Positions 25,344-54,459 of a stretch of DNA of 64,000 bases are shown piece after piece (the first letter of the stretch is position 1; each line of letters opens with the position of its first letter). The DNA lies in contig NZ_PYAU01000001.1 of the NCBI RefSeq assembly GCF_003014675.1, positions 930,001 to 994,000 of the forward strand, written 5' to 3'. The DNA is from Labedella gwakjiensis. GTDB taxonomy: Bacteria; Actinomycetota; Actinomycetes; Actinomycetales; Microbacteriaceae. The translations under genes were made by a program, and so were the position numbers. Below the pieces are notes generated by a model. That model made no database searches. It worked only from the letters and a program-made list of their open reading frames with translations, and was not told where the DNA came from.

Positions 25344-25432
25344 GGGGGCGGGGGGGCGGGGCGGGGGCGGGGCGGGGCCGGGGGCGGGGGTGCCGGGGGG
25401 GGGTGAGGGTGCCGGGGGGCGGGCGTATCGTC
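25344..25432. other. G-run tract with G-quadruplex potential
   Basis: Over about 90 bases the plus strand has a dozen or more runs of three to nine Gs separated by one to six bases (GGGGGCGGGGGGGCGGGG and similar). It completes the 332-bp intergenic region between fruR and the hydrolase gene and ends 28 bp before the hydrolase ATG, on its coding strand. Confidence 0.8.
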
Positions 25433-48964: not shown

Positions 48965-49969
48965 ATGAGCGACGGTGGAGGCAAGCGGCGGGTCGGCGTG
49001 CGCGACGTCGCGCGGCATGCCGGCGTGTCCACGCAGACCGTCTCCCGCGTGCTCAACGACTACCCCGGCATCCGCGACGACACCCGCGAGCGCGTCCTCG
49101 CCGCCGTCGCCGACCTCGACTACCGCATCAACAACGCGGCACGCGCGCTGGGGACGAGCCGCTCGCGAACCGTCGGCGTCGTCGCGTCCGACACCGCGCT
49201 CTACGGCCCGTCGGCCGGGATCGCCGCGCTCGAAGCCGCGGCGCGCGACCGGGGACGCTGGATCGCGACCGCCTACGCGAACGCCGAGGACGAGTCCTCC
49301 TTCGCCGCCGCAGTCCGGCACCTGCTCGCCCAGGGGGTCGACGGCATCGTCCTCGTCGCGCCTCACGTCGGCACGCGTGCGACGCTCGACGAGGCGGGGC
49401 TCGGCGTCCCCGTCGTGTCGTTCCACGAGGAGACCGGCGAACGTCAGGCCGACGGCGCAGCCCTCGCGGTGAACCACCTCGTGGAGCTCGGGCATCGCCG
49501 GCTCGCGGAGGTCGCCGGGCCGTCCGACTGGTTCGAGGCCACGGCGCGTTCAGCGGGCATCGCCGCTGCGGTCGCGGGCTCCGGTGCCGCCGTGACGGAC
49601 GAGTGGAGCGGCGACTGGACCGCATCCTCGGGGTACGCCCTCGCCGACGAGGTCGCCGTCCGGATCGGCCGCGATGACGGACCGACGGGCATCGTGGTGG
49701 CGAACGACCAGATGGCCCTCGGCCTCATCGCCGGCCTGACGGCCCGGGGTGTGGCCGTGCCTGGCGCCGTGTCGATCACCGGTTTCGACGACAACCCCGA
49801 TGCCCCCTTCTACACGCCGGCCCTCACGACGGTGCGCGTCGATCTCGCCGGTGAGGCCCGCCGCGCCGTCGCCGAGGTGCTCGGCGAGTCGGCGCCTCCC
49901 CCGTCTCCGCCCCTCCTCGTGGTGCGCGACTCCACCGCCCCGCCGCACACGTTCGCCGCCACTCTGTAG
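48965..49969 (+). CDS. LacI-family regulator of the arabinose locus
   Basis: A 334-residue LacI-family repressor. The DNA-binding helix-turn-helix is VGVRDVARHAGVSTQTVSRVL, followed by the hinge DLDYRINNAARALGTSRSRTVG and a sugar-binding domain with NDQMALGLI and GFDDNPDAPFYTPALTTV. The gene is in line with araD, B and A but separated from them by 502 bp holding a tandem array and a palindrome, so it probably has its own promoter and represses them. The ATG has no good ribosome site. Confidence 0.9.
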   Translation: MSDGGGKRRVGVRDVARHAGVSTQTVSRVLNDYPGIRDDTRERVLAAVADLDYRINNAARALGTSRSRTVGVVASDTALYGPSAGIAALEAAARDRGRWIATAYANAEDESSFAAAVRHLLAQGVDGIVLVAPHVGTRATLDEAGLGVPVVSFHEETGERQADGAALAVNHLVELGHRRLAEVAGPSDWFEATARSAGIAAAVAGSGAAVTDEWSGDWTASSGYALADEVAVRIGRDDGPTGIVVANDQMALGLIAGLTARGVAVPGAVSITGFDDNPDAPFYTPALTTVRVDLAGEARRAVAEVLGESAPPPSPPLLVVRDSTAPPHTFAATL

Positions 49970-49980
49970 GAGCCGGGGCC

Positions 49981-50303
49981 GGTCCCTCCAGGCGAGGGCG
50001 GTCGTTCCACGCGAGGCCGAACCTCGCACGGGAGAGCGGTCGTTCCACGCGAGGCCGAACCTCGCACGGGAGAGCGGTCGTTCCACGCGAGGCCAGACGT
50101 TCCAGGCGAGGCCAGTCACTCCACGCGAGGCCAGTCCCTCCAGGCGAGGCCAGTCCCTCCACGCGAGGCCAGTCCCTCCAGGCGAGGCCAGTCACTCCAC
50201 GCGAGGCCAGTCCCTCCGGGCGAGGGCTGTGGTTCCACGCGAGGCCAGTCCCTCCACGCGAGGCCGAACCGTCCACGTGAGGCCGATCGCGCTCGTCGAG
50301 GGC
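49981..50303. repeat. 19-bp tandem repeat array, about 17 units
   Basis: Seventeen contiguous 19-bp units begin 12 bp after the LacI gene stop. The commonest is AGTCCCTCCACGCGAGGCC with variants (AGGCGAGG, AGTCACTCC, GGTCGTTCC); units 2-3 and 4-5 form an exact 38-bp duplication. All units are in perfect register; units drift at the 3' end. There are no spacers, so this is not CRISPR. Stops are absent in several frames, so it produces spurious ORFs on both strands. Confidence 0.92.
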
Positions 50304-50410
50304 GCCTGTTCGGAGTCGAGGGCGCCACTCCCAGCTGTAGCCTTCGCTCGGGAGTAGCACTCTGGGGGGCGGTCAGGCGGGTGGGATGGAGGGGATCTGG
50401 CGTCGGGGGG

Positions 50411-50426
50411 ATGTTACCGGTAACAT
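50411..50426. promoter_or_regulatory. LacI-type operator of the arabinose operon
   Basis: ATGTTACCGGTAACAT is a perfect 16-bp palindrome with a central CG, 45 bp upstream of the araD start. It matches the operator at 2621-2636 at 12 of 16 positions or better in its arms. Confidence 0.8.
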
Positions 50427-50471
50427 GACGGTGGGTCGACGGAGTCGGCCCCCGACCTCGATGGAGACGCG

Positions 50472-51248
50472 ATGAGCAGCCCCCTCCCGGCAGAGCCGCC
50501 GGAGACGACACCCCCGACCGACCGCGACGGAACGGGGACCTCGCTCCCGTTCGATCCCGAGACCGCCGCAGCCGTCGACCGCGTCCGCGCCGACGTCGCC
50601 TCCCTCCACGGGGAACTCGTGCGCTACGGACTCGTCGTCTGGACGGGCGGGAACGTCTCGGGCCGCGTGCCCGGCACCGACCTCTTCGTCATCAAGCCGT
50701 CCGGCGTCTCGTACGACGACCTGGCTCCCGAGAACATGATCGTCTGCACTCTCGACGGCGAGGTCGTGCCGGGAACGCCCGGCAGCGACCGCAGCCCCTC
50801 GAGCGACACGGCGGCGCACGCGTACGTGTACCGGAACATGCCGGACGTCGGCGGCGTCGTGCACACCCACTCCACCTACGCCGTCGCGTGGGCGGCCCGC
50901 GCGGAGGAGATCCCCTGCGTGATCACCCAGATCGCCGACGAGTTCGGCGGACCGATCCCCGTCGGCCCGTTCGCGATCATCGGCGACGACTCGATCGGCC
51001 GCGGCATCGTTGACACTCTCACGGGCCACCGTTCGCGCGCCGTGCTCATGCAGAACCACGGCCCGTTCACGATCGGCGTCAACGCCGCCGACGCCGTGAA
51101 GGCCGCCGTCATGTGCGAGGACGCCGCCCGCACCGTGCACATCGCTCGCCAGGCCGGCGAGCTCGTGCCCATCCCGCAGGACAAGATCGACAGCCTCTTC
51201 AACCGCTACCAGAACGTGTACGGCCAGTCATCGGACGACCGCCGATGA
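50472..51248 (+). CDS. araD: L-ribulose-5-phosphate 4-epimerase
   Basis: A 258-residue class II aldolase/AraD-family enzyme that converts L-ribulose 5-phosphate to D-xylulose 5-phosphate. Landmarks are [23 protein letters not shown], the zinc histidines in VVHTHSTYA, and [10 protein letters not shown]. An N-terminal Pro/Thr-rich extension of about 28 residues is unusual. GGAGA precedes ATG 50472. Its stop overlaps the kinase start (ATGA). Confidence 0.93.
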
Positions 51249-52915
51249 GCGCCACGACCCCCGACACGGCAGCACTCCGAGAAGCAGCAGCGCTCCGAGA
51301 GGCGGCAGCGCTCCGAGAGGCGGCAGCGCTCCGAGAGGCGATCGGGCAGGGCAGCACCTCCCTCGGGATCGAGCTCGGCTCCACGCGCATCAAGGCGTGC
51401 CTCATCGCCGACGACGACCCCTCGACGGTGATCGCGACGGGGAGCCACGACTGGGAGAACGCCTTCGTCGACCGGATGTGGACGTACTCCCTCGAGGACG
51501 TGTGGGCGGGGCTGCAGGCCGCGTTCGCCGACCTCGTCTCCGACGTCGAGTCGCGCCACGGCGTGCGGCTCGAGACGGTCGGGGCACTCGGCGTCTCGGC
51601 GATGATGCACGGCTACCTCGCGTTCGACGAGAAGGACGAGCTGCTCGTGCCCTTCCGCACATGGCGCAACACCACGACGGGCCGCGCCTCCGACGAGCTC
51701 TCCGTTCTCTTCGGCGTCAACATCCCCCTGCGGTGGTCGATCGCGCACCTGCACCAGGCCGTGCTCGACCACGAGCCGCACGTGCCCGACATCCGCTTCG
51801 TCACGACGCTCGCGGGCTACGTCCACTGGCGCCTCACGGGCGAGAAGGTGCTCGGGGTGGGCGACGCGTCCGGCATGTTCCCGATCGACCCGGCGACGCG
51901 CGACTACGACGAGGAGCTCGTGGCCCGTTACGACCGGATCGAGGCGAGCGAGGCTCCCGGCCTCCACCTCCGCGAGGTGCTTCCGCGCGTGCTGCCCGCC
52001 GGCGAGGAGGCCGGTCGTCTCTCCGAGGACGGCGCGGCCCTCCTCGACCCCACCGGTGGACTCCGTCCCGGCATTCCCCTCTGCCCGCCCGAGGGCGACG
52101 CGGGGACGGGCATGGTCGCGACGAACGCCGTCTCCCCCCGCACCGGCAACGTGAGCGCCGGCACGAGCATCTTCGCGATGGTCGTGCTCGAGCGTCCGCT
52201 CGCGCAGGCCCACGACGAGCTCGACATCGTGACGACGCCCGCCGGCGACCCCGTCGCGATGGTGCACTGCAACAACGGCGCGAGCGAGCTCGGCGCATGG
52301 GTGGGGCTGTTCCGCCGCTTCGCCGAAGCCGCCGGCACGCCCGTCGACGCCGACACCGCCTTCGAGACCCTCTTCCGGGAGGCCCTCGACGGCGACGCCG
52401 ACGGCGGTGGACTGCTCGCCTACAACCAGCTCTCCGGCGAGCCGATCGCGGGGCTCGACGAGGGACGACCGGCCGTCGTCCGTACGCCGGACAGCCGGTT
52501 CACGCTCGCGAACTTCATGCGCACGCAGGTCTACGGAGTCTTCGGGACCCTCGCCCTCGGCATGCGGGTACTCGCGAACGAGGGCGTGGCCATCGACACG
52601 ATGTTCGCCCACGGCGGCCTCTTCCGCACGGCCGGTGTCGCGCAGCGCTTCCTCGCCGCCGCGATCGACGCCCCCGTCGCCGTCACACGAACGGCGTCCG
52701 AGGGCGGACCGTGGGGCATGGCCGTCCTCGCGTCGTACCTGCGTGCCGCGACCGACGGCGTCTCGCTCGGCGACCACCTCCGCGACGCGGTGTTCGCCGG
52801 CGGAGAGTCCGACGTCGCCGAACCCGACGCCGCCGACGTCGCCGGCTTCGCCTCCTACCTCACCCGCTACGAGGCGGGGCTCGCGATCGAGCGCGCCGCC
52901 GTCTCCGCCATCTGA
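51245..52915 (+). CDS. FGGY-family carbohydrate kinase, probable ribulokinase
   Basis: A 556-residue FGGY-family kinase, by context phosphorylating L-ribulose. The actin-like ATPase start [18 protein letters not shown] occurs near residue 38, preceded by an N-terminal tail of tandem ALREAA repeats. [25 protein letters not shown] and [10 protein letters not shown] are later landmarks. Database labels for this family include xylulokinase; placement between araD and araA argues for ribulokinase. The 18-bp DNA repeats at the N terminus are likely a local expansion. Confidence 0.88.
51269..51340. repeat. 18-bp in-frame tandem repeat at the kinase N terminus
   Basis: Four consecutive 18-bp units (GCAGCGCTCCGAGAGGCG; the first copy diverged at three bases) encode a run of ALREAA hexapeptides. 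The copies two to four are identical, pointing to recent expansion. Confidence 0.92.
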
Positions 52916-52941: not shown

Positions 52942-54459
52942 ATGCCCACCCCTCTCACGACCTCGTTCGACGGCCTGGAGATCTGGTTCCTCACCGGAAG
53001 CCAGGGACTCTACGGCGAGGACACTCTCCGCCAGGTGGCCGAGCAGTCGCAGCAGATCGCGACGACGCTCAGCGACAGCGACATCCCCGTGCGCATCGTG
53101 TGGAAGCCCGTCCTCACGGATTCCGCGTCGATCCGACGCGCCATGCTCGACGCGAACAGCGATGACAAGGTCATCGGCCTCATCGCGTGGATGCACACGT
53201 TCAGCCCCGCGAAGATGTGGATCGCCGGCCTCGACGCGCTGCGCAAGCCGCTCCTCCACCTGCACACGCAGGCGAACGTCGAGCTGCCGTACGCGGACAT
53301 CGACTTCGACTTCATGAACCTCAACCAGGCAGCGCACGGCGATCGCGAGTTCGGCTACATCCAGACGCGTCTCGGCGTTGCCCGGAAGACCGTCGTGGGG
53401 CACGCCACCAACCCGCGCGTGACCGCCTCCATCGCGATCTGGAGCCGCGCGGCCGCCGGCTGGCACGCGTCGCAGAACCTCAAGCTCGCGCGCTTCGGCG
53501 ACAACATGCGCTACGTCGCCGTGACCGAGGGCGACAAGACCGAGGCGGAGCACCGCTTCGGCGTGCAGGTGAACACGTGGTCCGTCAACGAGCTCGCGGA
53601 GGCCGTCGACTCGGCCACCGACGAGGCGATCGACACCCTCGTCGCCGAGTACGAGGAACTCTACGACGTCGTGCCCGAGCTGCGTCGCGGCGGCGAGCGC
53701 CACCAGTCGCTGCGCGACGGCGCGGCGATCGAGATCGGCCTGCGGAGCTTCCTCGAGGAGGGCGGATTCTCGGCCTTCACGACGAGCTTCGAGGACCTCG
53801 GCACGCTCAAGCAGCTGCCGGGTCTCGCGGTGCAGCGCCTCATGGCCGAGGGATACGGCTTCGGCGCGGAGGGCGACTGGAAGACGGCCGTGCTCGTGCG
53901 TGTCGCGAACGTCATGGGCGCCGGCCTCCCCGGTGGCGCGAGCCTCATGGAGGACTACACGTACGACCTCGTCGACGGTGCGGAGACGATCCTCGGCGCG
54001 CACATGCTCGAGGTGAGCCCGTCGCTCACGACCGCGAAGCCGACCCTCGAGTTGCACCCGCTCGGCATCGGCGGCAAGGAGGACCCGGTCCGCCTGGTCT
54101 TCACGGCCGACCCCGGCACCGCCGTGGTCGTGGCCCTGTCCGACGTGCGTGACCGCTTCCGCCTCACGGCGAACGTCGTCGACGTGGTCGAGCCGCGCGC
54201 CCCCCTGCCGAACCTGCCCGTCGGCCGCGCCGTGTGGACCCCGCGTCCCGACTTCGCGACGTCGGCGGCCGCGTGGCTCACGGCCGGTGCCGCCCACCAC
54301 ACCGTGATGTCGACGGCCGTCGGCATCGAGGCGTTCGAGGACTTCGCACGAATCGCCGGGGTGGAGCTCCTCATCATCGACGAGGACACGACGCTCCGTG
54401 CGTTCGAGCAGGAGGTCCGCTGGAACGCGGTGTACCACCGCCTGGCCGACGGCATCTGA
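52942..54459 (+). CDS. araA: L-arabinose isomerase
   Basis: A 505-residue isomerase that converts L-arabinose to L-ribulose. It begins with [17 protein letters not shown] and contains [43 protein letters not shown] and the metal-binding histidine in LEVSPSL and HPLGIGG. Length is the family norm. It is the last gene of araD-kinase-araA, 26 bp after the kinase, and followed by a strong terminator. Confidence 0.97.

Follow-up and report, generated by a model that had tools for sequence, protein, structure and literature searches.

A 19-bp tandem array, probably a species-specific minisatellite, between a lacI-type gene and the L-arabinose operon of Labedella gwakjiensis, and a dispersed element beside it

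Seventeen 19-bp units stand head to tail in the gap between a lacI-type gene and the L-arabinose operon of Labedella gwakjiensis. The array is most likely an intergenic minisatellite, non-coding and species-specific, in which the 19-bp units form a higher-order unit of 38 bp; it would have arisen by slippage or unequal recombination and probably has no dedicated function. The window, a stretch of 64,000 nucleotides, is part of the single contig that makes up the 3.84 Mb genome of L. gwakjiensis (G000), and it was compared with the corresponding loci of three congeners in the Microbacteriaceae, L. endophytica (G001), L. populi (G002) and L. phragmitis (G003). The lacI-type gene, araD, the sugar kinase gene and araA all lie on the plus strand. 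AraD and AraA scored above the NCBIfam cut-offs and the sugar kinase below, in agreement with an initial annotation that had placed the array next to an arabinose operon. The features of the locus are as follows.

48965 to 49969, plus strand: LacI-family regulator gene (NCBIfam LacI-family match of 223 bits, under the model cut-off of 340).
49981 to 50303: array of 17 head-to-tail 19-bp units without spacers, consensus AGTCCCTCCACGCGAGGCC, with a 38-bp higher-order period.
50000 to 50094: exact duplication within the array, units 2-3 being identical to units 4-5 and unit 6 to units 2 and 4 (from the unit listing).
50295 to 50367, minus strand: copy of a genus-wide dispersed element of about 70 bp (from profile matches), whose terminal box coincides with unit 17 in the array register (from the sequence).
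50411 to 50426: perfect 16-bp palindrome ATGTTACCGGTAACAT, a presumed LacI-type operator with the 14-base core TGTTACCGGTAACA.
50472 to 51248, plus strand: araD, L-ribulose-5-phosphate 4-epimerase (NF005123, 366 bits; cut-off 251).
51245 to 52915, plus strand: sugar kinase in the araB position, xylulokinase-like, under the NCBIfam cut-off.
52942 to 54459, plus strand: araA, L-arabinose isomerase (NF002795, 784 bits; cut-off 622).

Units 1 to 17 run in a single gapless register from 49981 to 50303, as initially annotated. The last two units, 16 and 17, are degenerate, and the final one shares bases with the end of the dispersed element, which is a different sequence. The 38-bp duplication of units 2-3 as units 4-5 is exact, as had been noted, and, with unit 6 being one more copy of units 2 and 4, the exact repeat reaches 57 bp (50000-50056 identical to 50038-50094). 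The array starts at the 12th base past the lacI stop codon (49967-49969), and the palindrome lies 107 bp beyond the array end. Tandem Repeats Finder, proposed as a check, called the array at 49977-50284 with a period of 19 (16.2 copies, 74% matches) and, with a better score, a period of 38 (8.1 copies, 85% matches). Self-identity of the array was 0.74 at lag 19 and 0.82 at lag 38; 5000 first-order Markov shuffles gave a lag-19 identity of 0.30 ± 0.027 with a maximum of 0.40. Mean column identity of the units was 84%, based on 11 selected dimers of 16. The 17-unit array was confirmed as real and far beyond chance.

The units are contiguous and do not show the unique spacers between repeats that mark a CRISPR. 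Nor is the unit palindromic and dispersed as in REP or BIME sequences, as it forms a single genomic cluster and its best internal inverted match is 71% complementary. What was found instead, 16 to 17 head-to-tail units longer than about 10 bp and beyond chance, together with absence of the array from three orthologous Labedella loci, agrees with a lineage-specific minisatellite. The array resembles the bacterial minisatellites and VNTR loci of MLVA typing in its short head-to-tail units, intergenic position, lineage specificity and internal exact duplications; one genome of its species was found in the collections used. Mycobacterial MIRU units are longer than 19 bp and are members of one dispersed sequence family. 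The array shares with MIRU-VNTR loci an actinobacterial host and an intergenic position between co-directional genes, and differs in that its 19-bp units make one cluster in the genome.

PMC2884548 describes minisatellites as small tandem repeats in common use for typing strains, and considers slippage of replication from one short repeat to another a likely origin of small variable segments. The minisatellite collection of that paper was built with 90% identity and a 20-bp minimum unit, compared with which the array falls short in identity (74% matches at period 19 and 85% at period 38) and, at 19 bp, just below the unit length. A literature search, with most subscription papers outside its reach, gave no description of these repeats in the titles and the beginnings of abstracts of the papers listed. 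The initial annotation could name no family for the array, and likewise no Rfam match up to an E value of 1 was obtained for positions 49000-51500 of the window.

A search of the genome with the unit consensus had also been suggested, and it returned one cluster. The 13-base unit core gave 10 exact matches in the L. gwakjiensis genome, eight of them inside the array, and no period-19 array was present at either of the two places outside it. Allowing up to one mismatch, 34 matches were counted (26 forward and 8 reverse; 15 and 12 for a control pattern), and the array was the sole multi-copy run of the core. Among 59 genomes searched at the DNA level, the entire array was found in L. gwakjiensis only, with partial matches in two others. 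The match in G029 (75 bp, 79% identity, E value 1e-7) falls on an 18-bp array of 3.9 copies of another unit and was taken as similar GC-rich composition rather than the same array, and the two matches in G043 (33 and 22 bp) are both to the stretch beyond unit 16. A model of 38-bp dimers, built from 11 of the 16 possible dimers, was run with stricter filters on 120 family genomes, 56 candidates being scored in each. Three genomes reached E ≤ 0.001: L. gwakjiensis with eight matches, and two more in each of which a single weak match was obtained (E about 4e-4 and 5e-4). The array as a plasmid or phage element was not upheld: no match to it was found among plasmids, and a 17-base pattern matched once in each of 11 viral contigs. 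None of L. endophytica, L. populi and L. phragmitis has the 19-bp array between lacI and araD. This absence from three congeneric loci is opposed to the constant copy number with conserved coding that had been named as contrary evidence, and it fits a fast-evolving element.

The distance between the lacI stop and the operator is 441 bp in L. gwakjiensis, 198 bp in L. endophytica, 56 bp in L. populi and 46 bp in L. phragmitis. From the operator to the araD start, by comparison, it is 45 bp in L. gwakjiensis, 45 bp in L. endophytica, 51 bp in L. populi and 48 bp in L. phragmitis, with alternative candidate araD starts lying nearer in L. populi (12 bp) and farther in L. phragmitis (81 bp from the operator). 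Only the lacI-to-operator gap thus differs among the four loci, the operator-araD distance being about the same with or without the array. The idea that the array changes the spacing of the arabinose promoter, raised in the initial annotation, is therefore unsupported, the array lying upstream of the operator; it widens the space behind lacI and leaves the promoter region unlengthened. The corresponding gap of L. endophytica contains a 15-bp repeat of 2.3 copies with another unit (L074 5173-5207) and, at L074 5216-5287, a dispersed-element copy that is oriented on the plus strand.

As its perfect register and exact duplications of 38 and 57 bp suggest, the array most likely grew through slippage during replication or through unequal recombination, in the space that follows the lacI-type gene and in a host lineage where short GC-rich arrays are not rare. 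Other arrays with different units were found in the genus, pointing to a general slippage tendency rather than a special device at the ara operon. The window itself contains an 18-bp array of 4.1 copies at 51267-51340; L. phragmitis has a 15-bp array of 10.5 copies (L066 5823-5980) at about the araD/kinase junction, its position being deduced from araD length; and in L. endophytica tandem repeats of 15 bp fall within the lacI-type gene, whose frame is uninterrupted (L074 4607-4805). Copy number of the 19-bp array may still be changing, and the array is probably neutral, serving no dedicated function. Among the points that count against this explanation, the units are fairly alike, which recent homogenisation or selection would each explain, and two of them, units 1 and 13, are similar to units of the dispersed element, which might mean a more specific origin than random slippage. 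As DNA the array is of an ordinary kind, at most a possible strain-typing marker, and the dispersed element is the more interesting of the two.

An iterated profile over the extracted loci gave 286 non-identical hits to this element on both strands. After removal of opposite-strand duplicates and of hits with E above 1e-5, at least 137 copies were counted in the four Labedella genomes (at least 48 in L. endophytica, 36 in L. populi, 32 in L. gwakjiensis and 21 in L. phragmitis). The start of 91 of the 137 copies lies within 60 bp past the stop of a same-strand ORF judged coding by GC content, and 59 of these 91 start at -2 to +3 relative to the stop; the mirror-image test from the 3' end of the element gave 36 of 137. 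The copy by the array is an exception, as araD, the gene on that side, reads away from it. The genes upstream of the element are diverse (10 of 19 own-genome cases scanned, eight with a Pfam match). Flank-matched sites formed 34 reciprocal groups with 88 copies, six groups with four species, eight with three and 20 with two.

At the variable position of CTAC[T/A]CCCG (A2 column 15), copies of L. gwakjiensis and L. endophytica carried T in 67 cases and A in one (12 untyped, n = 80), and those of L. populi and L. phragmitis carried A in 47, T in four and C in one (five untyped, n = 57). In 15 of the 16 two-clade groups, every typed copy read T in the first clade and A in the second. The element seems to change in concert, with CTACTCCCG in L. 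gwakjiensis and L. endophytica and CTACACCCG in L. populi and L. phragmitis. An element that often stands right behind stops, is shared at corresponding sites by as many as four species and differs in step by a single letter between the two clades would, if the pattern holds, offer a testable example of concerted evolution in a sequence family; 3'-end formation, mRNA stability and DNA packaging are candidate purposes.

A model of the element made from 80 of 130 full-length copies was run on 150 family genomes, with up to 32 candidates scored in each, and matched eight of them, strongly in G000, G001 and G003 and weakly in five others. A related inverted element with its own consensus and CGAG units of about 19 bp is abundant in another genome of the Microbacteriaceae, G173 (64 rows, the strands overlapping), and gave seven rows in G031; the same query gave none in G005 (labelled as the same genus as G173), G134 and G060. 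In the putative hairpin of the Labedella element 83.6% of cells pair. Covariation was near that of shuffles, as the score was reached in 63 of 500, both-side pair changes in 34 of 500 and pair types in 3 of 500, and RNAalifold gave five pairs and no compensatory change. Rfam searches on four loci with element copies returned three matches, all far under gathering scores, and one of the three, sX12 (24.6 versus 106 bits), falls over an element copy. The element is like REP/BIME sequences in its dispersed intergenic units, inverted boxes and frequent position just behind genes, and unlike them in that many copies begin right at the stop codon, at sites common to several species. The Y1-type (RAYT-type) transposase associated with REP sequences (PF01797) was matched in none of the four Labedella genomes, whereas the control gave matches in 5 of 14 reference genomes, leaving a RAYT-driven REP reading of the element unsupported.

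The terminal-box CGAG of the adjacent element copy, read on the plus strand, keeps the 19-bp register of the array exactly and points in the same direction as its units. The array might be an amplified box unit of about 20 bp, the terminal CGAG box having been copied head to tail about 16 times, which we regard as possible but doubtful. The spacing of the last two element boxes is in keeping with it: of the 81 copies in which both were found, 77 have them 20 bp apart and four have them 19 bp apart. For units 1 and 13 the scores against three profiles of element units were high (p 0.000-0.003 in each, relative to the 1912 CGAG 19-mers of the window and uncorrected for 17 partly identical units and three profiles). 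The array consensus, on the other hand, gave p values of 0.03-0.08 against these profiles and of 0.06-0.16 among 687 CGAGG controls, and a local alignment test of array against element gave 0.72 and 0.48. Descent of the array from the element is only suggestive from these comparisons.

Arrays are also unenriched at elements: among gene ends in the extracted loci, 5 of 146 with an element and 13 of 399 without one carried an array (Fisher p = 1.0), several arrays being counted from both neighbouring genes, so that by eye about three are distinct among the 5 and about nine among the 13. The 19-bp array is counted with those 13, since its element lies more than 245 bp from the lacI stop. Preferential array growth at the element was rejected on the same grounds. 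An initial comparison had found arrays in 5 of 137 3'-flanks, 0 of 136 5'-flanks and 8 of 1370 segments placed at random in these loci, and the fairer control of other gene ends removes this signal (5/137 versus 13/399, p = 0.79; 5/146, p = 1.0).

A broader reading joins these observations into one modular family of CGAG units of about 19-20 bp in the Microbacteriaceae. It would have become a four-box element behind stops in Labedella, with orthologous copies changing together in each clade through a shared trans-acting factor, and the array would be a 17-unit amplification that could titrate this factor by the arabinose operator. We consider the whole of this chain improbable.

It is also improbable that the units serve as clustered binding sites of a regulator tuning the ara operon or the lacI-type gene. 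Its position between regulator and operon and its regularly spaced, fairly similar units are what such a cluster would look like, but three congeneric loci have the same operator and operon and no array, and the units are unlike the operator, the 71% complementary match being the only inverted one within the array. The DNA helix makes one turn per about 10.5 bp, and a 19-bp pitch puts successive sites on different faces. The operator core TGTTACCGGTAACA was present in 18 of 20 loci, the window included, within 2.5 kb downstream, and was not found within that distance in loci L079 and L080.

A repetitive peptide encoded by the array is extremely unlikely, for even with reading frames as open as the initial annotation had described (0 or 1 stop per frame in six frames, open frames on both strands, and ORFs of 202, 189 and 178 aa among those overlapping the array), GC by codon position is flat, at 0.68-0.77 in all six frames against 0.77/0.56/0.91 in lacI, the ground on which coding DNA was rejected, the 19-bp period is no multiple of three and the array is missing at three congeneric loci. 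A structured RNA was rejected on the lack of an Rfam match and on folds less stable than those of 100 shuffles, with z scores of +2.07 for 49967-50375 on the plus strand (flanks included) and +1.65 for 49981-50284 on the minus strand.

In two species, arrays built of unlike units, 18 bp in one and 15 bp in the other, occupy roughly corresponding places at the araD/kinase junction. A run of about 50 C lies upstream of the dispersed element in locus L140, and a low-complexity stretch of about 60 bases, mostly G, lies at 25344-25425 of the window.
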